Origin: Treponema sp. | GTDB taxonomy: Bacteria > Spirochaetota > Spirochaetia > Treponematales > Treponemataceae | Assembly (NCBI GenBank): GCA_014804005.1 | Contig: JAAVAP010000013.1 | Location: 200,302-264,301 of the forward strand | DNA length: 64,000 nt | Reading direction: 5' to 3' | In this document: positions 13,839-46,679 of the stretch, one piece after another | Position numbering within the stretch: position 1 is the stretch's first letter | Layout of the letters: each line of letters starts with the position of its first letter | Position numbers and translations under genes: made by a program | Notes under the pieces: generated by a model | What the model was told of the DNA's origin: nothing | Databases searched by the model: none | The model's input: the letters and a program-made list of their open reading frames with translations, nothing else

Positions 13839-14573
13839 CTAATTTATTGAAGCGAATCCGTTCCTTGCGATTTCATCGACAAGTTCCGCGCCGCCAGTCC
13901 GCACGATTTTTCCCTTCGCGAGAATGTGCGTGTAGTCCACTTTGAGGCTTTCGAGAATTTTCGCCGAATGCGTTATTATCAAAAGCGCGCCATTGTTCGC
14001 CTTTTTGTATTCTTCGATTCCGCGCGAGACAGTGCGCACGGCGTCCACGTCCAGTCCTGAATCCGTCTCGTCCAAAATCGCGAGCCGAGGCTTGAGCATG
14101 AGAAGCTGGAGAATCTCGCTTTTTTTGCGTTCGCCGCCCGAAAATCCCACGTTCAAATCGCGCGCGGCGTAAGACGAATCCATCGCCAAAAATTCCATCT
14201 GCGCCTTGAGTTCCTTTTGGAATTGGAAAAGCTTGACGCGCTCGCCGGTTTTCTGCGCGATCGCGCTTCGGATGAAATTCTCGAGCGAGATTCCCGGAAC
14301 TTCGAGCGGATTTTGGAACGACATGAAAATGCCTTTTTTCGCGCGCGCCGCCGCGTCGTCGCCCGTTATGTCCTCGCCGTCGAAAAATATTTTTCCGCCC
14401 GAAAGAGTGTAGAGCGGATTTCCCATTATCGCGTTTCCGAGCGTGGATTTTCCCGCGCCGTTCGGCCCCATTATGACATGAGTTTCGCCCGCGCCCACGC
14501 TGAGGCTCAAGCCTTCGAGGACTTGCTTTTCATCTATTTTTACGCCGATGTTGTTTACTTCGAGTAACGCCAT
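13839..14573 (-). CDS. sufC: Fe-S assembly ATPase SufC
   Basis: The 244-residue ABC-type ATPase drives the SufBCD scaffold. Walker A is GPNGAGKST, the Q-loop is MSFQNPLEVPGI, the signature is FSGGERKKSEI, Walker B is LAILDETDSGLD, and the switch histidine is in IITHSAKIL. The start is MALLEVNNIGVK at 14573; an upstream in-frame extension has no similarity. There is no Shine-Dalgarno site, and a TATACT box lies exactly six bases before the ATG, so the whole operon is predicted to begin with a leaderless message. Confidence 0.95.
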   Translation of the reverse strand: MALLEVNNIGVKIDEKQVLEGLSLSVGAGETHVIMGPNGAGKSTLGNAIMGNPLYTLSGGKIFFDGEDITGDDAAARAKKGIFMSFQNPLEVPGISLENFIRSAIAQKTGERVKLFQFQKELKAQMEFLAMDSSYAARDLNVGFSGGERKKSEILQLLMLKPRLAILDETDSGLDVDAVRTVSRGIEEYKKANNGALLIITHSAKILESLKVDYTHILAKGKIVRTGGAELVDEIARNGFASIN

Positions 14574-14579
14574 ACTTTT

Positions 14580-14608
14580 AGTATAATGAAAATCCGCAAT
14601 AAAGGCAA
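14580..14608 (-). promoter_or_regulatory. Promoter TTGCCT-17-TATACT of the suf operon
   Basis: On the minus strand, TTGCCT is at 14608-14603 and TATACT at 14585-14580, with a 17-base spacer. The sufC ATG follows after six bases, so +1 coincides with the start codon. I see no operator for an Fe-S regulator. Confidence 0.75.
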
Positions 14609-14732
14609 GGGCGCAGCGAGATTTTGCGGAGCCTGACTTTTTTTCGCCTGTCCAGTATATTTTGACAGACAGCCGCGTCCATTTAAGGTTTTCGCCCTGT
14701 AACAAACCCTGCGGCGTTTTTCCCTTATGTCC

Positions 14733-14762
14733 TTGACACTTCGCGGCATTTCATGCTAGTAT
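14733..14762 (+). promoter_or_regulatory. Promoter TTGACA-18-TAGTAT of cassette A
   Basis: TTGACA is at 14733-14738 and TAGTAT at 14757-14762. The ATG of the leader ORF comes six bases later. It drives the leader, attenuator and DUF6261-like gene in cassette A. Confidence 0.7.
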
Positions 14763-14768
14763 ATTTTT

Positions 14769-14846
14769 ATGATGCATATATCCCCACAACTTGAATACAA
14801 AGAACTGCTCGCTAGAAAAAGTATGGGGGGGGGTGTAACAGCCTAG
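14769..14846 (+). CDS. Cassette A leader peptide with in-frame G9 tract
   Basis: The predicted leaderless 25-codon ORF starts MMHISPQLEYKELLARKS and ends MGGGVTA-stop. Nine G residues at 14825-14833 encode the glycines. Inserting one G would move the frame into an open reading frame that continues without a stop through the hairpin and repeats to 15346 (about 192 codons), overlapping the DUF6261-like start. Removing one G gives an immediate TAA. The peptide ending GGG-V-T is shared with the cassette B leader (GGG-I-T). No homologue is known to me. Confidence 0.6.
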   Translation: MMHISPQLEYKELLARKSMGGGVTA

Positions 14847-14875
14847 GTTTTTTCGGAAAAGCACAGTTCGCATAT

Positions 14876-14925
14876 AAAAAGACGCGCAATGAGGACAAAA
14901 TGTCTAATTGCGCGTCTTTTTTATT
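14876..14925 (+). terminator. Intrinsic terminator / attenuator in the cassette A leader
   Basis: A 15-bp perfect stem (14876-14890 pairing with 14907-14921), with an inner GACA/TGTC hairpin, runs straight into a T-rich tail. It lies 29 bases after the stop of the leader peptide and 370 bases before the DUF6261-like gene, so it would end most transcripts unless read through. Confidence 0.8.
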
Positions 14926-14934
14926 TCGCTTTGC

Positions 14935-15184
14935 TTCTCACATTGTGTCGCTTGGCGCATTTTCAAGCAAAATTTATTCTCACATTACTCCACTTGGCGT
15001 GTTTTCAGGCAAAATTTGTTCTCATGTAGTCTCGTTTGGGTTGTTTTCGACCAAATTCATTCTCATATTGTTTCGCATGGCGTGTTTCTGGGCAGAATTT
15101 GTGCTCGCATGCTCCGCATGGAGCGTTTCCATGCAAAATTTCTTCTCACATTGCGTCGCGGGGCGCGTTTTGTCGCAGGGCTTC
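14935..15184 (+). repeat. Tandem array of six 41-42 bp units, cassette A
   Basis: Units begin with TTCTCA or a variant at 14935, 14977, 15019, 15060, 15102 and 15143. They share TTCTCACATT, TGGCG and CAAAATTT. Within several units short arms pair: CTTG/CAAG in unit 1, TTTGG/CCAAA in unit 3, ATGGA/TCCAT in unit 5. The pairing is kept although the bases differ. Confidence 0.75.
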
Positions 15185-15260
15185 GCCCTGCTTCCGAGTT
15201 TTCGTTTGCTCGCGAGGCTCGCATTTTTGTCGCTTCGCGGCAAAAAGCACGAAAACTCGC
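15176..15260 (+). repeat. CGAGTTT multi-hairpin element, copy 1
   Basis: The hairpin CAGGGC-TTC-GCCCTG (15176-15190) is followed by outer arms CGAGTTTTCG/CGAAAACTCG (15195-15259). These enclose a CTCGCGAG palindrome and TTTTTGTCGC-TTC-GCGGCAAAAA. The whole resembles a branched, REP-like structure. The same arrangement recurs at 45339-45437 and 46482-46547, with smaller relatives at 31920 and 54188. Confidence 0.75.
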
Positions 15261-15296
15261 TCAAATTTAGCAAAAAACATAAATCAGGAGGGTTTT

Positions 15297-16013
15297 ATGG
15301 CAAAAGTTGCAAAGGTAAACGCAAGGGTTTTCGTGACGGAGCTTGACGCGCTCTCGGACGCGCTGGAGCGCGAGTATGCGGCGGCTTGCGCGGGCGGCGA
15401 GACGGCGGTGGCGAAGGACGCTGTGCTTAAGGCGCAGTTCGGGCAGCTTAAGGACTTGAGCGCGCGGAACACCACGGCAATCAAGCAGTCGCCTGTGACG
15501 TCCACTCTGGACGAGGCGGATTCGGCGCGGGATTCCGTGACGCGCGACCTCTTCACGCTCGCTGGCGGCTACACGGCAAGCCCTTTCGCGGAGGTAAAGG
15601 CCGCGGCTCAGGTTGTGTGCGCGGTGCTCGAAAAATACGGGCGCGGCATGACTGGCAAGGGCTACGCGGAGCAGACCGCGCTCACCGAGTCGCTTCTGGA
15701 GGATTTGGCGGCATCTTCGGTTTCGGAGGGCGTGAAGGCTCTTTCGGGAGTGGCGGAACTCTTGGCACAGTTGCGCTCGGCGCAGGACGGATTCGCCTCC
15801 GCGCACGACGGCTACATCAAGGCGAAGCTCGGAAAGGGCGAGTCGGCAACGTCGCTCAAAAAGCCGATTGTCTCGCTGATTAACGACGGCATCGTGCCGT
15901 ACCTGAACATCGTGGCGGCGATGGACGGCTACGCGGACTTCGCGGACGCGGTGGCGGAGAACATCAAGAAGATGAACAACACCGTGGCGCGCCGCCTGGC
16001 GACGGAAAAGTGA
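15297..16013 (+). CDS. DUF6261-like protein, cassette A
   Basis: The 238-residue, Ala-rich, entirely helical product has no signal peptide. It aligns along its whole length with the cassette B protein: LSARNTTAIK, LDEADSARDSV, TESLLEDL, LRSAQDGF, KGESATSLKK and IVPYLNIV have direct counterparts. The third copy (cassette C) has the sequence pattern I associate with DUF6261, a family of unknown function frequent in Bacteroidetes. The start at 15297 has AGGAGGG upstream. Base composition is clearly GC-richer than the gene that follows. The function is unknown; four-helix-bundle-like pairing of long helices is likely. Confidence 0.75.
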   Translation: MAKVAKVNARVFVTELDALSDALEREYAAACAGGETAVAKDAVLKAQFGQLKDLSARNTTAIKQSPVTSTLDEADSARDSVTRDLFTLAGGYTASPFAEVKAAAQVVCAVLEKYGRGMTGKGYAEQTALTESLLEDLAASSVSEGVKALSGVAELLAQLRSAQDGFASAHDGYIKAKLGKGESATSLKKPIVSLINDGIVPYLNIVAAMDGYADFADAVAENIKKMNNTVARRLATEK

Positions 16014-16056: not shown

Positions 16057-16887
16057 ATGAAGAGAAAACGGATTGAAGTTGTGTTTATGGCGGCGCTTTT
16101 CGCGGCGGCGTTGGCGTTTGTGGCATGCAAGAATATTGAAGATGGCGGCGAAATCCAGCAGCCTCCTGCGCCCGAGCAGGGTGCGAGTGGCGGAAGCCAA
16201 GGCGAAGGACAGCCCAGCGGCGGCGATAACACAGGCAATGAAGGCGAGAATCCCGATGAAGGCGGAGATGAAGGTGATGAACAAAATCCTCCGCAACCAT
16301 CTGGTAAAACTGTTGTTGAGCTGATGAAAGAAATCATCGGAGAAAACAAGTACGACGCGATTTCGGAGGAAGTGGCGGCCGGAAACATGACATTGACGGA
16401 AGAAAAGATAAAAGCGGTGGGCGACATTTTCCCCGCCCTTGAAAAGGACGCGGAAAGCGGCAAGGAAGCAAAAGACGTGGAGAACGCTGAAATAATTCGG
16501 CAAAACAAGGAAGCATTCGTCGCGCAGGCGCGGGGCGAAATGGAAGACGTGTTCAAGACTATATATCCTGAAGGGTATGAAGAGTATCCTTTTCTCTTTG
16601 ACGAAGATGACTTTGAAAGGAAATATGTCGTCACATACAAAAAGAATTTTACATTCGAAGGCGAGTTCAACCTCGACGAAATTGACATAATAAAAGCGGA
16701 TGGCGCGCAAGGAGATTTCTCAAATGCAACATTAACGGGTAATAATATAACTATTGATAATCTTAATAGTATAAGAGGTGAGTATTTACCAACAATATCA
16801 TCTACAAATATATCATCAAGTTCATCTCCAAAAGCTATCTATAATTTATATAAAGCATATTCAAGTAATTTAAATAAACTTACTTGA
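16057..16887 (+). pseudogene. Lipoprotein gene of cassette A, N-terminal part; truncated by a stop
   Basis: The product starts MKRKRIEVVFMAALFAAALA with the lipobox FVAC, then a Pro/Gly/Glu-rich linker (EIQQPPAPEQGASGG...). AAGGAG lies upstream of the ATG at 16057. The first ~630 bases have the composition of the neighbours; from about 16690 the sequence becomes strongly AT-rich with AAA, TTA, ATA and AAT codons. The frame ends at TGA 16885-16887, but similar AT-rich coding sequence continues in another frame to 17797, so this is probably a broken surface lipoprotein. It lies 43 bases after the DUF6261-like stop. The translated 276 residues could still be made. Confidence 0.65.
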
Positions 16888-16912: not shown

Positions 16913-17797
16913 TAGTATGGTAAAGAAATAAGTGGTAATAACAGTGATTACACTTTATTCACAGATGATAATAAAGCTAAATTATCAACAAATACTTCAA
17001 TCACATCACTTTCCGCTGATGCATTGGCTCAAATGACAAATCAATTAACTATTTATGATATTCGTAATATGATAATATCTGGTAATGCAAAAACAAATAC
17101 AGTAAATTGGCAACTTACAAATATAATATTTGAAGGTGATATGAGTAATCTTAAAAATGATTTTACAAATCCAGATAATGAGTCAGCTTTACGTTTGTAT
17201 GGTATTGTATATTTTAAGAATAAACCTTATAATAATAGCAGACAAGATGGACAAAGTGTTGTAGGAATGTTAAAATTAGATAAATTAGAAGGGGTATCTA
17301 GTAACAATTTTAAAGTTGGTTTTGGTTCTACTTCTTATAGTGTTTTGGATGTTAGTGGGATTGACGCAAGTGTTTTAAGTAACTATAATCCAACTAATAA
17401 AGAAATAATTTCAAGAGGAGAAAGCACTCATGCGATTTATTTCAGTAATCTTAAAAATAAGACAGAAGATATCAATAAACTTTGTTATAAGTTTGTATCT
17501 AAAAGTTCACCAGGCATCGTAAATGTTTACTTAGGAGATAATAGAGATAAGGGAAATCATTATGATCGTTATCCTGACGATACAGCAGCTTCAAGAATTC
17601 CTAGAACATTAAAAGAATTTGAATATTTTGGAAATTATGACAAATTTGAAAAGTCTGCATACTCATCTTATTCATCTACCGATTTGGAAGAGTTACCACA
17701 AAAAGAGAAAAAACAGCTTGAAGGTGATAAGGACACAAAACAGATTGCTCAAAACAACAGAAAGTGCTTTTCCTGCGTAGCGAAAAGTTTTGTTTAG
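16913..17797 (+). pseudogene. AT-rich remainder of the cassette A surface protein, out of frame
   Basis: The frame runs from just after TAG 16910-16912 (YGKEISGNNSDYTLFTDD...) to 17797 with no good start or ribosome-binding site. It reads as the continuation of the upstream lipoprotein: polar, Asn/Ser/Lys-rich, with beta-type segments such as WQLTNIIFEGDMSNLKNDF. At least two lesions separate the parts (a frameshift near 16882 and a nonsense codon). The very low GC compared with flanking DNA suggests the C-terminal part came from an AT-rich donor. The last ~20 codons return to host-like composition. Confidence 0.6.
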
Positions 17798-23699: not shown

Positions 23700-23735
23700 A
23701 TTATTTTTCAGGCGAATTGATTTCGAAAATTTTCT

Positions 23736-23983
23736 CCAACGCCAAGGGAAGCAATTTCAAAACTGAAAAAGTCGTCCGAATGCGAAAGAAGGGCATTACA
23801 AAACTGAAATTTGCCGCCCTGACGCGAAAGAAAGGCGTTTCAAAACCGAAATCGCTTCCCCAACGCCAAGGGAAGCCGTTGCAAAACTGAAAAAGTCGTC
23901 CGAATGCAAAAGGAAGGCGTTACAAAACTGGAATTTGCCGCCCTGACGCGAAAGAAAGGCGTTTCAAAACTGAATTTGCTGTC
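23736..23983 (+). repeat. Array of 41-42 bp hairpin repeats between the LCP gene and rsfS
   Basis: Units begin AAAACTG or AAAACCG at 23759, 23800, 23842, 23883, 23924 and 23966. Every three units form a 124-base higher-order repeat (23736 and 23860). Each unit can form a hairpin around AAAGAAAG or AAGGGAA, with arms that change together: AATGC/GCATT, CAACG/CGTTG, GACGC/GCGTT. The array lies in a convergent intergenic region and runs into the last codons of rsfS. Confidence 0.8.
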
Positions 23984-37429: not shown

Positions 37430-39712
37430 CTATTTTCTATACCAGTTCCAGTTAGAATAGATATATAAATTGTCGCCATTCGGATCTGCGGGATCAACTA
37501 CATCTGTTTCATCATCTTTGTTCACACGACGCCATTCTCCAGTAACCTGAGCGTTCAAATTCTTGCATCCTACGAATGCATCCCATTCTATGGTTTTTAC
37601 ACTGTCAGGTATTTTCACGTCCGTGAGGTTAGGCTGATAAAAAAATGCGCTAGCGTCTATTTTTGTTACGGTATTGGGGATTTCGATTTTTTCCAATACT
37701 CCTGGAACTTTGCTGTTGTATGCAGCGAATGTGCCACCTGGAATTTCTGTTACGCCAGGCTCTATTACTACGGATTTTAGATTGCTGTCATAAAATGCAA
37801 ATTCATCAAAAAATTTTACGCTTCCAGGAATGGTGACGCTTTCGCCGTAATACCCAGCAAAAGCGAAATCACCTATATATTCCAACTTGCTCGGAAGTTT
37901 TCCTGCAAACCTGCATCCTCTCATGGCATTTTTTTTAATAACCTTAACGCTGTCGGGAAGTTCGATGCCGCTGTCAAAATACGCACCATAAAAAGCATAT
38001 TCTTCTATGGTTTCTACTCCGTCAGGAATTCTTATGCTTTTATATATATAAGGATCGGAGCCATTGTTATCAAAGAATTCTTTTGGAATGCGCGTCGCAC
38101 CATCACGCAATATTATGTCTATGTTGCGACAGTCGTAATAATCATCGAGATTGGGTATTTCTAATTCTGGAACTTCATCACCACCAGTACTGTGGCTATA
38201 CTTGCGAAATATTCTCAAAAACTCTACGCCAGTGTTAAGTACAGACGCTGGAAGCGATATGGTTCTGAGATTCGTTGTTATTGAAAAAGCATTATCTTCA
38301 ACAGTCGCATTGTCTGGAATTATTATTTCGGAAAGCGGCGAGTAGTAAAACGCCTTTTTTCTTATAATTTCTACGCTGTCAGGAATTGTTACTTTGGAAA
38401 GATTTTTGCAATAAGAAAACGCACCATCCTTTATTTCTGTCACTCCGTCGGGAATGACGACTTCTGTCAAGCCGCAGTCAGCAAAAACACATTCTCCAAT
38501 AATTTTCAAGTCGGAGGGAAATTTTATATCAGTGAGATTTTCACAATACGCGAACATGTAAGTCTTTATTTCATTCCAATTGTCAGGCAAAACCACTGTT
38601 TTAAGTTTTTTGCAATACCAAAATGCAAAGTCGCCTATATTTTCCACATCAACGCTGTCGGGAATTACAACGTTTTCAAAATTACAGTTATAAAAGGCAC
38701 TTTCTCCGATGAATTTTAGGGTATTAGGTAAATGCAAACTTTTGAGACCACCACCGAATGCGTTGTGTTCTATACGTTCAACGCTGTTCATCGATACGGT
38801 TGCAAGGTTTGTGCAACCTGAAAACGCATAAGGATCTATTCTTTCTACTCCGTTCATTATTACGGATTCAAGGCTCGTGCATCCTGAAAATGCATACATG
38901 CCGATACTTTTTACGCTGTCTGGCAGTTCAATGCTTTTGAGTGACGCACATTCCTCGAATGTGCATATTCCTATTTCGCTCAGTTGACCTTTTATGACGA
39001 CCTTTTCCAAATTCGTACAATACCAAAAGGCATACTCACCAATGCTCTGCACACTTGCTGGTATTGTAATGCTTTTGATGATGTCGCATCCAGATAATTC
39101 CCAGCTATCATAAAACGCCTTCCAGCCTATGGCAGTAACGCCATCGGGAATCACCACGTCGGCGGGAAGTTCGTCTTTGATATATCCCACCACCGTATTT
39201 TGATAAATTTCAAGTCCGTTTGTATATGTGGTTTCAGTCGTAATGTCAGCCCATTTCGCATACAATATATATGTGTCAGGGATATTCAATTCTGTGGGAA
39301 TCCAAATTTCTTCCCCAGGCTTATATGTATAATATATATTATAATAAGGATCCTCCCATCCAAGAAAGGAATATCCCTTGATATTAAAAATAGGCTCTTG
39401 AGGAAGCGTGTATATACTTCCCACATTGACCGTTACCGTTTTCGGCTCGAGCGTTTCCGCTTCGGGAGTGCCTTCGGGGGCGTTCGGATAAAAGTACAGC
39501 GTGCAAGTTTTTTGTTCGGGATCTAAATCAGGGTTTTGTATGTTGTCAGAATTTCCATTTTCAGAACTTCCATCGTCAGTATTTCCGTTATTTTCAAGAT
39601 TTCCGCCGATGTCGATGCCATCGCTGCTGTTGTTGCATCCCGAAATGCACAACGCCGCCAAGAGCACGGCGACCACGCATTGTTTCGTCCAATTCAAAAA
39701 ATTTCTTTTCAT
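37430..39712 (-). CDS. BspA-type leucine-rich-repeat lipoprotein, cassette B
   Basis: The 760-residue product has the lipobox ISGC, then a Gly/Asn/Asp-rich spacer and one InlB B-repeat-like domain (TLYFYPNAPEGTP...YSFLGWED...YILYAKWAD). After that come about 20 TpLRR/BspA repeats of ~23 residues such as IPDSVKSIGMYAFSGCTSLE. BspA-like proteins bind host matrix, other bacteria or polymers at the cell surface. The start at 39712 uses a GGAGG placed at the end of the preceding DUF6261-like gene, 12 bases after its stop region, so expression is coupled to it. Confidence 0.9.
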   Translation of the reverse strand: MKRNFLNWTKQCVVAVLLAALCISGCNNSSDGIDIGGNLENNGNTDDGSSENGNSDNIQNPDLDPEQKTCTLYFYPNAPEGTPEAETLEPKTVTVNVGSIYTLPQEPIFNIKGYSFLGWEDPYYNIYYTYKPGEEIWIPTELNIPDTYILYAKWADITTETTYTNGLEIYQNTVVGYIKDELPADVVIPDGVTAIGWKAFYDSWELSGCDIIKSITIPASVQSIGEYAFWYCTNLEKVVIKGQLSEIGICTFEECASLKSIELPDSVKSIGMYAFSGCTSLESVIMNGVERIDPYAFSGCTNLATVSMNSVERIEHNAFGGGLKSLHLPNTLKFIGESAFYNCNFENVVIPDSVDVENIGDFAFWYCKKLKTVVLPDNWNEIKTYMFAYCENLTDIKFPSDLKIIGECVFADCGLTEVVIPDGVTEIKDGAFSYCKNLSKVTIPDSVEIIRKKAFYYSPLSEIIIPDNATVEDNAFSITTNLRTISLPASVLNTGVEFLRIFRKYSHSTGGDEVPELEIPNLDDYYDCRNIDIILRDGATRIPKEFFDNNGSDPYIYKSIRIPDGVETIEEYAFYGAYFDSGIELPDSVKVIKKNAMRGCRFAGKLPSKLEYIGDFAFAGYYGESVTIPGSVKFFDEFAFYDSNLKSVVIEPGVTEIPGGTFAAYNSKVPGVLEKIEIPNTVTKIDASAFFYQPNLTDVKIPDSVKTIEWDAFVGCKNLNAQVTGEWRRVNKDDETDVVDPADPNGDNLYIYSNWNWYRK

Positions 39713-39723
39713 AATTTCCTCCA

Positions 39724-40440
39724 TTATTCTGCGTCCGTCAAGTCATTGTTTTCCGCGCCTTTTTTCGAGCGGCGGTCGGCCGCGTTGTTGACGCGCTTTA
39801 TTTCCGTTTCGACTTGTGACGCGAACTTCGCGTAAGGCTCGGCGAGTCTCACCGCGCCCAAATACGGCACAAGCCTTTCGTTTACGAACGCTACAAGCGT
39901 TTTCTTTATCTCGGTGGCGTTTTCGCCTTTTTCCGATTTCGCGACGGTGTACGCGTCGTTTGCGGCGTTGAATTCGTCCTGCGCGTGGCGAAGCCGCTCC
40001 ACAAGGGTTTCCACGCCTTCAAGGATTTTCATTTCAGATTTGAACGCGCCCAAGTCTTCCAAGAGGCTTTCGATGAGCGAAGATTCGGATGCGTAGCTTT
40101 CGTTTACGATTTTCTTTCCGTATTTCGAGAACGCCGCATCGAGCCGCTTCGCTGCTTCTTTTTTTTCGGGAACGGGAATTACGGCGTAGCCTTGAATCAG
40201 CGTTCCCAAATTGCGCACCGCCTCGTCGCGCGCGCCGTCGCACTCATCCAAACGTGAATTCGCCACGTCCTTTTTGATTGCGGTGGTGAGACGCGCGCTC
40301 AAGGACTCAAGTTCCTTGAACGCGCCCGAAAGGAACGAGTCGTTTTCAAGACCCGCCGCTTTGTAAAGGCGCAGCAACGCGTCGCTTGCGGAATCCGCTT
40401 CCGTTGCGCGGATTCTCGCGTAAAGTTTTGTCATCGCCAT
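39724..40440 (-). CDS. DUF6261-like protein, cassette B
   Basis: The 238-residue helical protein has the same length as the cassette A copy and aligns with it over the full length (LSARLTTAIKKD, LDECDGARDEAVRNL, ESLLEDLG, LRHAQDEFNAAND, KGENATEIKKTL, LVPYLGAV). No signal or membrane segment. AGGAGG precedes the ATG. The surface LRR gene follows directly. Function unknown; the repeated pairing of this family with exported proteins suggests a role in their production, regulation or secretion. Confidence 0.75.
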   Translation of the reverse strand: MAMTKLYARIRATEADSASDALLRLYKAAGLENDSFLSGAFKELESLSARLTTAIKKDVANSRLDECDGARDEAVRNLGTLIQGYAVIPVPEKKEAAKRLDAAFSKYGKKIVNESYASESSLIESLLEDLGAFKSEMKILEGVETLVERLRHAQDEFNAANDAYTVAKSEKGENATEIKKTLVAFVNERLVPYLGAVRLAEPYAKFASQVETEIKRVNNAADRRSKKGAENNDLTDAE

Positions 40441-40724: not shown

Positions 40725-40772
40725 ATAAAAAAAACGCGCGCTCTGAGGCTTTGTGCTTTCAGAGTGCGCGTT
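40725..40772 (-). terminator. Intrinsic terminator / attenuator in the cassette B leader
   Basis: On the minus strand a 14-base stem (40772-40759 with 40746-40733, one mismatch) runs into eight T residues. It lies 32 bases after the leader-peptide stop, almost the same spacing as in cassette A, and 290 bases before the DUF6261-like ATG. Confidence 0.8.
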
Positions 40773-40804
40773 CGTTAATTGCGTTGTTTGGAAATTAAAA
40801 AATG

Positions 40805-40930
40805 CTAGTCGGTTATACCCCCCCCCGTAGTCGTTTTACAAGGGGTGCATGGCATCCATAAAGCCGCATGCCGCTCGTGGAAAGAAACGGAATGTTTCGA
40901 AGAAGTTCTTGCGGCGAATTCGGCGTTCAT
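40805..40930 (-). CDS. Cassette B leader peptide with in-frame G9 tract
   Basis: The 41-codon ORF starts MNAEFAARTSSK; AAGGA lies seven bases before the ATG. It ends TTTGGGITD-stop. The glycines come from nine G residues on the minus strand (plus-strand C at 40818-40826). One extra G opens a frame that continues without a stop through the terminator and repeats to 40431, ten bases inside the DUF6261-like gene. One fewer G gives an immediate TAA. Confidence 0.6.
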   Translation of the reverse strand: MNAEFAARTSSKHSVSFHERHAALWMPCTPCKTTTGGGITD

Positions 40931-40975: not shown

Positions 40976-41005
40976 ATTGTATTATGTTTTACGCCGTTTT
41001 GTCAA
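40976..41005 (-). promoter_or_regulatory. Promoter TTGACA-18-TACAAT of cassette B
   Basis: On the minus strand, TTGACA is at 41005-41000 and TACAAT at 40981-40976. The predicted leader before the leader-peptide ATG is about 39 bases. Confidence 0.65.
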
Positions 41006-44075: not shown

Positions 44076-45275
44076 CTACTTTTGTTTGTTGAACTCGCCG
44101 TCAGAACAGCGGACGGCATAATTGCCGCTACTGCTTTTTTCTATTGCCTCCCACTGCGCCTTTGTGCCGTCGTACTGGACGGTGAGATTGTCGCATTTAT
44201 AGAACGCATACCCGCCAATTTCCGTAACGCTCCGTGGAATCGTAACGCTCTTGAGCGACGTGCAGTCTTGGAACGCGTCATAGCCAATTTTTGTAACGCC
44301 TCTTGAAAGCGTGACGCTCTCAAGTGACTTGCAATTAATGAACGTGTATTGGCTGATATTCTTTACGCCTTTCGGAATCGTCACCGTCTTAAGACCAGAG
44401 CCTCTGAACGCGCTATCGCCGATTTTCGTTACGCTTTCGGGAATCGTTATGCTCGCAAGTGATTTGCAGCCCTTGAACGCACTATCGCCAATTTCTGTAA
44501 CGCTTTCAGGAATCGTCACGCTCGCAAGCGATGTGCAACCATTAAACACACTATTGCCAATTTCTGTAACGCTTTCAGGAATCGTCACGCTCGTAAGTGA
44601 CGTGCATCCTTCGAACTCACCTCTGCAGATTTTCGTAACGCCTTCGGAAATCGTAACGCTCTTGAGCGACGTGCAACCGCTGAACGCGTAATTACCGATT
44701 GTCTTTACGCTGCCCGGAATCGTCACGCTCTCAAGCGATGTGCAGTCTTCGAACATACTGTCGCCGATTGTCTCCACACCCTCGGAGAGCGTAACGCTCT
44801 TGAGCGATGTGCAGTCCCTGAACGCGTAATTGCCTATTTTCTTTACGTTTTCGGGAATCGTCACGCTCGTAAGCGACTTGCAGCCGCGGAAGGTGTTATT
44901 ACCGATTGTCTTTACGCTGACAGGAATCGTTATGCTCTCAAGCGATGTGCAGTCTTTGAACATACTATCGCCGATTGTCTCCACGCCCCCGGCAAGCGTA
45001 ACGCTCTTGAGCGACGTGCAACCGCTGAACGCGCTTTTGCCGATTAACTTTACGCTGCCCGGAATCACGACGCTTTCAAGGTACATACACTGACTGAATG
45101 CCCCCTCTCCTATTTCCGTCACTCCCTCGGAAATCACGAGGTTGTCGGGAATGTCGTCCTTGTCGCAGCCCGTTATCTTCGTGCCTTCCATCTTGAGATA
45201 CGATGGGAAGTCCGCCGCGAAAGCCGCCGTCGCAAGTACCATTGCCGCGAGCGCGGCATACATTTTGTTTTTCAT
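44076..45275 (-). CDS. Secreted BspA-type leucine-rich-repeat protein, cassette C
   Basis: The 399-residue product has the signal peptide MKNKMYAALAAMVLATAAFA and then about 14 nearly identical 23-residue BspA/TpLRR repeats (CTSLKSVTIPESVTEIGDSA type). A short C-terminal domain (VQYDGTKAQWEAIEKSSSGN) is common at the end of such proteins. There is no lipobox, unlike the cassette B protein. AAGGA lies upstream of the ATG at 45275. The near-identity of repeats at DNA level would favour unit gain and loss. It lies downstream of the DUF6261-like gene, separated by a multi-hairpin element. Confidence 0.9.
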   Translation of the reverse strand: MKNKMYAALAAMVLATAAFAADFPSYLKMEGTKITGCDKDDIPDNLVISEGVTEIGEGAFSQCMYLESVVIPGSVKLIGKSAFSGCTSLKSVTLAGGVETIGDSMFKDCTSLESITIPVSVKTIGNNTFRGCKSLTSVTIPENVKKIGNYAFRDCTSLKSVTLSEGVETIGDSMFEDCTSLESVTIPGSVKTIGNYAFSGCTSLKSVTISEGVTKICRGEFEGCTSLTSVTIPESVTEIGNSVFNGCTSLASVTIPESVTEIGDSAFKGCKSLASITIPESVTKIGDSAFRGSGLKTVTIPKGVKNISQYTFINCKSLESVTLSRGVTKIGYDAFQDCTSLKSVTIPRSVTEIGGYAFYKCDNLTVQYDGTKAQWEAIEKSSSGNYAVRCSDGEFNKQK

Positions 45276-45338
45276 GCTTTTTTCCTTGATGAAAAAGTTT
45301 GGATTTATTTCCACGCGGCATACGCCACGCGTTTTTAT

Positions 45339-45439: not shown

Positions 45440-46171
45440 TTACTCCGCAACGTTTGCGGAAGTCGTGCCCTTTTTCTTTGACCCACCCAAGACTTCCTGC
45501 TTGAAATGCTCGATTTCCGTGTTGGCATAGTCAATAAATGCCGCGTATTCCGCCTCGCCCTCAAGCAAGGCGTGTGCGTTCACGTGAAGCACGAGCATTT
45601 TGTACGACTCGTCGCTTGCCGCTCGCGCCGCCTTGAGCGCGCCCGCCGTCTTTGCCGAGCGTTCGTCCGTGCGCTGTCCCGTGAGCGCGCGCACATCCTC
45701 ATTCGCCGACTTGAGCTTTTCCACAAACGCGCCGAGCGAAAGTGCCTTCACTTGCTCCGCGAATTTGCCTTCCAAGTCCTGAATGAAATTGACAAGCAAA
45801 CCCGTTTCCTTGTCCAGCTGCGCCTGCACGTCGATTTTGTAGTCCTTGATGTGCTGATTCAGCACTTTCGCGGCATCCGCCATGCTTTCCATGGGAAAAT
45901 TCACGTAGCCCGCGACGGCTTTCTTGTAGCCGGCATAAAGCTGGTCGCGCAAGCGATCCGCCGCCGCGATTTTGTCCGTGGTCAGGCTTTTTGCCGAGGT
46001 CTGCAAGTTCTCGTCCTCCGCCCGTACTGCGTCCCGCAGTGCCTTCACCTGCGCCGCGCATTTTTCAGCGACGGCCGCGTCCTTCTCCGCCCTGTCCGCC
46101 ATGTTGGACACGAACATGAAATGCGCCGCATTGTTCATGTTCCCCAAGAAAATCGACTGGATTTCCTTCAT
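45440..46171 (-). CDS. DUF6261 protein, cassette C
   Basis: The 243-residue helical protein has the full DUF6261 pattern known from Bacteroidetes: AAHFMFVSNMADRAEK, an ExENLQTSAKSL segment, RDQLYAGYKKAVAGY, LDKETGLLVNFIQDLEGKFA, RTDERSAKTAGALKAAR and ALLEGEAEYAAFIDYANTEI. It is more distant from the A and B copies than they are from each other. AGGAGG precedes the ATG. No export signal. Its 5' end is overlapped for 107 bases by the long leader ORF in another frame. Confidence 0.82.
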   Translation of the reverse strand: MKEIQSIFLGNMNNAAHFMFVSNMADRAEKDAAVAEKCAAQVKALRDAVRAEDENLQTSAKSLTTDKIAAADRLRDQLYAGYKKAVAGYVNFPMESMADAAKVLNQHIKDYKIDVQAQLDKETGLLVNFIQDLEGKFAEQVKALSLGAFVEKLKSANEDVRALTGQRTDERSAKTAGALKAARAASDESYKMLVLHVNAHALLEGEAEYAAFIDYANTEIEHFKQEVLGGSKKKGTTSANVAE

Positions 46172-46679
46172 ACAAACCTCCTAATGATTTCAGAAATGAC
46201 TTCAAGTTGCACTTGAAGTGTCCAAACGGTTTCGGAAGCGGCTTCAAGTGGCACTTGAAGCGTCCAAACGGTTTCGGAAATGACTTCAAGTTGCACTTGA
46301 TGTGTCCAAACAGTTTCAGAAGTGAGTTCAAGTGGCACTTGAAGTGTCCAAACGGTTTCGGAAGTGGCTTCAACTCGCAGTTGAAGTGTCCAAACGGTTT
46401 CAGAAGTGAGTTCAAGTCGCACTTGAAGTGTCCAAATAGTTTCAGAAGTGAGTTCAAGTTGCGGTTTGAGGCATGTTTGTGTCGCAGGACAAAGCCCTGC
46501 TTACCGAGTTTTGTACGCAAGCTCTTGGCTTGCTGCCAAAACTCGCCATGATTAGCATTTTGCGTGCCAAAGTCGTGATTTCTACATGCAGAAAGTGTCG
46601 CGCTGCGTAGAAATGCTATATCATTGTATAGGGGGGGGGTAGTCGTTATCGTGTTTTTAAGTTCCGCACATTTCCGCAT
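46065..46679 (-). CDS. Cassette C leader ORF, long (open) form with C9 tract and 14-residue repeats
   Basis: The 204-codon frame starts six bases after a TATAAT box (predicted leaderless) with MRKCAELKNTITTTPPLYND. Nine C residues (plus-strand G at 46631-46639) lie in codons 14-17. The frame passes through seven exact 42-base repeats, read as 14-residue units such as HLKPLPKPFGHFKC, and ends 107 bases inside the DUF6261 gene. One more or one fewer C would end the peptide within eight codons of the tract (TTPPPIQ-stop or TTPPYTMI-stop). Whether the product is functional or only its translation matters is unknown. Confidence 0.5.
   Translation of the reverse strand: MRKCAELKNTITTTPPLYNDIAFLRSATLSACRNHDFGTQNANHGEFWQQAKSLRTKLGKQGFVLRHKHASNRNLNSLLKLFGHFKCDLNSLLKPFGHFNCELKPLPKPFGHFKCHLNSLLKLFGHIKCNLKSFPKPFGRFKCHLKPLPKPFGHFKCNLKSFLKSLGGLYEGNPVDFLGEHEQCGAFHVRVQHGGQGGEGRGRR
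46201..46474 (-). repeat. Seven 42-bp palindromic tandem repeats, cassette C
   Basis: Units start with TTCAAG at 46201, 46243, 46285, 46327, 46369, 46411 and 46453, exactly 42 bases apart. Each has a palindrome such as CTTCAAGTG-G-CACTTGAAG plus a spacer TGTCCAAACGGTTTCGGAAG. Arms change together: ACTTCAAGT/ACTTGAAGT in unit 1, GCTTCAAGT/ACTTGAAGC in unit 2, CTTCAACT/AGTTGAAG in unit 5. The array ends 30 bases before the DUF6261 ATG. Confidence 0.9.
46482..46547 (+). repeat. CGAGTTT multi-hairpin element, copy 3
   Basis: GCAGGAC-AAA-GCCCTGC (46484-46500) is followed by CGAGTTTTG (46505-46513) and CAAAACTCG (46537-46545), enclosing GCAAGC-TCTTG-GCTTGC. It lies between the C9 tract and the 42-bp array of cassette C. 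Confidence 0.75.

Follow-up and report, generated by a model that had tools for sequence, protein, structure and literature searches.

Phase variation through translation-controlled transcription attenuation has a precedent in the pil1 and pil3 loci of S. gallolyticus, in which GCAGA repeats are present within a leader peptide and the stop codon used in the OFF state precedes a terminator by 28–39 nt (Danne et al., 2014; PMC3894217). For pil1, this mode of control has been proven by deletion of the terminator, by mutation of the start codon and through reporter assays (PMC3894217). A literature search for further cases yielded this system as the only true match, a result that is no proof of absence elsewhere. 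The attenuators of amino-acid operons (trp leader type) likewise let translation of a leader decide on the formation of an intrinsic terminator. Their input is tRNA charging, whereas in the cassettes described here it would be a heritable and reversible mutation, and no alternative antiterminator stem would be needed. Within the genus Treponema, surface proteins of T. pallidum (tprE/G/J, tprL, and tp0126) are connected with poly-G tracts, nine being the commonest length, and these tracts reside in the promoter or in the protein's own ORF, without a leader ORF or a terminator (PMC7864442).

We analyzed a 64,000-nucleotide stretch (the window) of a 2.53-Mb Treponema draft genome (labeled G000; L-numbers denote tract or DUF6261 loci). 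Like pil1 and pil3, its cassette A carries a repeat tract inside a leader ORF, and the OFF-state stop codon of this leader is located shortly (29 nt) in front of an intrinsic terminator that precedes the gene to be regulated. In both systems a shift in frame extends translation into or through the terminator stem; the operon downstream of the pil1 attenuator encodes a surface structure. The S. gallolyticus switch is driven by GCAGA pentamers, occurs at two loci and uses leaders preceded by a ribosome-binding site (RBS). Its mechanism was established experimentally, whereas that of the Treponema cassettes is proposed from a comparison of DNA sequences. While the kind of mechanism is hence known from pil1, new are the driver, a G or C homopolymer of 7–11 nucleotides, the often apparently leaderless ATG, the long 41/42-bp array that is open up to the downstream gene, and the existence of many paralogs in several species of another phylum. 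If our reading is correct, these cassettes would be the second instance, independent of the first, in which phase variation operates via transcription attenuation, here in spirochetes and multiplied over many loci.

Anatomy of Cassette A and the Proposed Switch

The features of cassette A and of two further cassettes of the window are compiled in Table 1. As the earlier note had stated, the leader ATG of cassette A is positioned exactly six bases after the −10 box, and it therefore probably represents a leaderless start. The TTGACA element and the 18-bp spacing of the promoter are retained in the paralogs L086, L099, L103, and L107. Given this leader start, which is predicted from the sequence, the tract lies within the leader ORF and downstream of the promoter. 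Since it begins 62 nt after the −10 box and not between the −35 and −10 boxes, a promoter-spacing switch of the tp0126 or Neisseria porA type was rejected for cassette A. An Rfam search of positions 14500–15500 gave no match at gathering score and thus no known riboswitch or cis-regulatory RNA.

Table 1. Positions of cassette features in the window.
Feature	Position	Strand	Remarks
Cassette A promoter	14733–14762	+	TTGACA 14733–14738, 18-bp spacer, TAGTAT 14757–14762
Cassette A leader ORF at G9	14769–14846	+	Reads MMHISPQLEYKELLARKSMGGGVTA-stop; TAG ends at 14846
Cassette A G9 tract	14825–14833	+	Proposed slippage switch; a length of 9 or 8 would be OFF, 10 or 7 ON
Cassette A long frame, read at G10	14834–15346	+	170 codons; spans terminator and repeat array, ends inside DUF6261 gene
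Cassette A putative intrinsic terminator	14876–14922	+	Stem 14876–14921; U-run in 3′ arm and tail
Cassette A repeat array	14935–15171	+	42-bp units (14 codons each), 5.7 copies, 68% matches
Cassette A DUF6261 gene	15297–16013	+	238 aa, own RBS, predicted all-helical
Lipoprotein gene	16057–16887	+	43 bp past DUF6261 gene; no Pfam match
Cassette B DUF6261 gene	39724–40440	−	Followed by BspA-type LRR lipoprotein gene 37430–39724
Cassette B terminator hairpin	40730–40775	−	Stem sequence mostly unlike A, equal distance from tract
Cassette B leader ORF	40805–40930	−	41 aa, RBS-led, G9 at 40818–40826; OFF at G9, 128-codon frame at G10
Cassette B promoter	40976–41005	−	TTGACA-18-TACAAT
Cassette C DUF6261 gene	45440–46171	−	Followed by BspA-type LRR protein gene 44076–45314
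Cassette C	46065–46679	−	ATG 46679 (6 nt after TATAAT), C9 46631–46639, 204-codon frame in register, array 46188–46459

We computed the reading frames by script for different tract lengths. At G9 the leader ends with GGGVTA-stop, 29 bases ahead of the terminator, and at G8 it meets a stop codon (ending at 14838) at once; both had been claimed before, as had the stop-free G10 frame, which our recomputation finds open to 15346, 50 nt inside the next gene. A tract of G7 opens the same frame, so that either change of the tract extends translation, by frame, through the terminator. The gene entered by this frame, previously described as DUF6261-like, is a member of DUF6261 (PF19775; 68.9 bits at a Pfam cut-off of 27 bits, 6e-19). 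Over its length the long frame is interrupted by no stop codon, vs. two and five in the other two frames.

The stem of the hairpin comprises 15 outer and 5 inner base pairs with a folding energy of −26.3 kcal/mol (z = −8.75); shuffled sequences reach −7.3 ± 2.2 kcal/mol, and none of 200 was equally good. The 15-bp terminator postulated in the earlier note is found at its place, except that the stem ends one base before the assigned position.

We propose, at a probability of about 0.7, that cassette A acts as a phase-variable attenuator, controlled by translation, of an operon comprising the DUF6261 gene and the lipoprotein gene. Transcription would begin at the ATG of the leader or close to it. 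With a tract of nine or eight G, ribosomes would leave the leader at a stop codon 29–37 nt ahead of the strong intrinsic terminator, the free hairpin would form, and most transcription would end at about position 14922. If the tract gained one G by strand slippage, or lost two, the leader would come into register with the stop-free frame that runs through the terminator and the 42-bp array up to the start of DUF6261. The trailing ribosome would then block the hairpin and keep the array translated, and the operon would be transcribed; the long peptide made on the way would have no selected sequence, its function being the passage of the ribosome. The previously suggested covering of the terminator stem by a ribosome is thus retained in our proposal, with the amendment that the switch would span the entire array up to the DUF6261 start. 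RNA polymerase slippage on the G9 tract could allow leaky expression even without a mutation. Should the proposal hold, tract length modulo 3 would provide a simple sequence rule for predicting the ON or OFF state of each locus.

Paralogous Cassettes in the Same Genome

This genome contains ten homologous copies of the G9 cassette whose downstream side is intact (those designated A and B in the window, L016, L074, L034, L001, L035, L033, L045, and L036). Judged by frame, each of them is OFF with nine G and open with ten. In nine, the frame directly after the tract is open for 128–255 codons, while the other two frames stop within 14 codons; the tenth (L036) has an open frame of 162 codons in a different register. 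A DUF6261 gene follows nine of the ten cassettes, and the contig carrying L045 ends too soon to tell. A T-tailed hairpin begins 42–48 nt past the tract in each of the ten, and a cassette of another species (L123; G11) has one at the same distance, with a different stem. The stem sequences of cassette B, L103, and L123 have diverged from that of cassette A, and the hairpin is retained; the stem of L099, which corresponds to the L034 cassette, is shorter yet folds (−10.7 kcal/mol). In a scan for comparable hairpins, only 15 of 668 coding windows matched. The claim of attenuation with a mutational switch gains support from this comparison, since tract, early stop codon, hairpin distance and open frame are kept together in all ten cassettes.

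Two further copies deviate from this arrangement. The L067/L073 copy is broken after the tract. A more distant copy with a tract of G10 and a related terminator (L051; G000:C20:33965) precedes a gene that does not belong to DUF6261, and the attenuator cassette may therefore have other cargo as well.

Related Loci in Other Treponema Species

Searches by blastn with the cassette DNA in 58 genomes of the genus gave no match, and relatives were recovered only via the DUF6261 protein. This family is expanded in several of the 98 genomes sampled from the genus, with 23 hits in the genome studied here, 26 in G093, 21 in G076, 10 in G067, and 5 in G055; the closest relatives with named records are Treponema MAGs. 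In the four other species, C-tract cassettes related to those described above are found ahead of DUF6261 genes. Their DUF6261 loci follow an equal plan, with tracts of C7–C11 or G9–G11 located 385–985 bp upstream. An unbiased scan over spacings of 3–13 nt places the first ATG 6–7 nt past the −10 box in all 14 loci whose −35 box agrees with TTGACA at five or six positions. Leaderless starts are therefore indicated for these loci; others possess an RBS.

When the register of the leader was compared with that of the long frame, 23 of 26 scored loci were OFF and three were ON, scores that depend on predicted leader starts and may be affected by miscalled homopolymer lengths in the draft assemblies. 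A random register predicts that one third are ON (binomial p = 0.011). L123 is OFF as well at G11 and would turn ON at G10. The ON loci (cassette C of the window, L143 in G093, and L169 in G067) amount to at most one per genome, a number too small to infer mutual exclusivity.

Nearly all DUF6261 genes have 41- or 42-bp repeat arrays upstream, whether or not a tract is present (e.g., L117, L126, L144, L167, and the array of cassette C). The period is mostly 42 in front of DUF6261 genes of the MKEIQ type and mostly 41 in front of other subfamilies; the units vary from locus to locus, and inverted repeats are frequent within them. We tentatively suggest that these arrays belong to a switch family, spread over several Treponema species, in which a frame is kept open over hundreds of codons regardless of its content, such that the 41/42-bp arrays would serve as ribosome-gated barriers, flipped by G or C homopolymers, ahead of mostly OFF DUF6261-surface protein operons, with no more than one ON, possibly in a mutually exclusive manner, per genome. 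Another 41/42-bp array, with a higher-order unit of 124 bp, is present between genes at 23732–23974 of the window; no DUF6261 gene was seen adjoining it.

An Open Frame Whose Peptide Seems Unconstrained

A sense frame without stop codons connects the tract with the DUF6261 start in 28 of 35 loci. Read in antisense, these regions contain such a frame in three of 35 loci (Fisher p = 1e-9), and dinucleotide shuffles predict 2.3; in reading these statistics it has to be considered that paralogs are not independent, that array periodicity eases open frames and that the antisense control accounts for this periodicity only in part. Five of the seven exceptional loci contain a single stop codon in their best frame, always at most 60 nt before DUF6261.

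Such frames of 128–300 codons, with in-frame 42-bp repeats, might suggest an ordinary phase-variable gene, in which leader and long frame together encode a protein of 14-residue repeats and the hairpin is incidental or adds polarity. Phase-variable ORFs with poly-G tracts are common, and the genome includes further examples within the signal peptides of lipoproteins. The pattern of substitutions speaks against this explanation. Across seven aligned locus pairs, the long frame carries 301, 294, and 308 substitutions at codon positions 1, 2, and 3, respectively (p = 0.85); for the DUF6261 genes of these pairs, the corresponding counts are 129, 90, and 439 (p = 4e-73). The excess at third positions expected from purifying selection on a protein is hence absent from the long frame of these pairs, and its dN/dS per pair is near 1, no better than in the other two frames. 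Moreover, the peptide is wholly different from one cassette to another, and the registers in which its end overlaps the following gene vary and include in-frame run-on. We therefore regard a repeat protein as an improbable product of these loci.

Because the frame is open yet free of codon constraint, it is translation itself, not the peptide, that appears to be kept, and ribosome passage seems to be under selection, as phase-variable attenuation predicts. Together with the changing stems of a persistent hairpin and the experimentally proven design of pil1, this property lends the attenuation model further support. A long reading frame would then be conserved for the act of translation and not for its product, and annotation pipelines would either misread it as a gene or miss it.

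Role of the Terminator in G-Type and C-Type Cassettes

The hairpin is constant in the G-type cassettes and mixed in the C-type, and the intrinsic terminator is therefore tied to the type represented by cassette A. Some C-type cassettes have a terminator about 73–93 nt from the tract; in many others, among them cassette C, no terminator-like hairpin was found near the tract. Over whole regions, hairpin totals are similar on the two strands (36 sense vs. 24 antisense). A terminator as a universal part of all tract cassettes is thus ruled out, and termination at a hairpin is not the universal step. In the C-type, control would accordingly have to come from coupling or from polarity that depends on translation. 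The terminator-based attenuation put forward in the earlier note would consequently apply to the G-type, and has to be amended to the extent that polarity or coupling seems to matter too.

Taken further, these observations could mean that the switch works mainly without a hairpin, in that the structured array, when untranslated, leads to Rho-dependent polarity or masks the ribosome site of DUF6261, a block that coupling relieves once the array is translated as far as the DUF6261 start or just beyond. The intrinsic terminator would then be an added lock in the G-type, an arrangement compatible with the attenuator model. In line with such a switch, C-type cassettes share the leader, the tract and the open frame, often without a nearby terminator; structure is more pronounced in the arrays than in coding sequence (mean z of −2.0 vs. 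−0.25), and the long frame ends at position +4 of DUF6261 in many loci. This end, however, arises automatically from the ATGA start once that frame is open, and coupling alone would not demand that the G-type strictly keep its hairpin and the distance to it despite altered stems. As the main mode of control, a hairpin-free switch thus appears somewhat unlikely to us, and we retain attenuation at the terminator for cassette A.

Variation in Tract Length

Runs of eight G occur six times in the window vs. 0.32 expected, and they form three tracts of exactly nine. The entire genome contains 76–77 G tracts of at least eight nucleotides (57 G9, 13 G8, 7 G10), and G7 is found as an exact tract only four times. 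They are located in promoter spacers, at the start of lipoprotein signal peptides, at operon joints and in leaders of the cassette A type. At L003 (TTGACA-TTTTAT-G9-TATAAT) and L022, the tract does lie between the −35 and −10 boxes, the position expected for a promoter-spacing switch. For a genome of 2.5 Mb, about 76 poly-G tracts represent a very large putative phase-variable set.

The uniformity of the tracts is striking: 57 of 77 read G9, among them those of all ten homologous G9 cassettes, and their flanks are biased genome-wide to AT-G9-TA, a preference that is unexplained. One might therefore consider G9 a fixed element of cassette A, at which polymerase or ribosome slippage always lets a minority of ribosomes pass in the long frame, or where the AT-G9-TA motif is a site of binding or recombination. 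We hold this to be improbable in view of the variation that does exist. Tract lengths vary from 7 to 11 among homologous cassettes of related species, and two contigs of the assembly, C1 (L004) and C26 (L065), are identical over 4009 bp save for G8 vs. G9 in one other tract. In T. pallidum tprL, nine G predominate, yet lengths of 7–11 coexist in vivo (PMC7864442). These data are consistent with the slippage proposed for the G9 tract of cassette A. The variable tract of L004 and L065 is positioned just upstream of a TATAAT-like box.

Genes Downstream of the Tracts

The DUF6261 protein of cassette A was modeled as all-helical (pLDDT 87), and a fold search with this model gave no PDB match below E 0.001; the literature search on DUF6261 returned nothing useful. 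The lipoprotein gene that follows is the probable operon partner of this DUF6261 gene. Genes for a lipoprotein, a BspA-type LRR protein or a similar exported protein are often found about 11–305 bp after DUF6261, next to other cargo, and surface proteins are therefore the likely target of the switch. The benefit to the cell would then come from turning surface lipoproteins or LRR proteins on and off, and the uncharacterized DUF6261 family would be linked to switchable surface-protein operons in Treponema. Beyond the lipoprotein ORF of cassette A, a second AT-rich ORF (257 aa) is located at 17024–17797; the two possibly represent one frameshifted gene, or AT-rich DNA of other origin.
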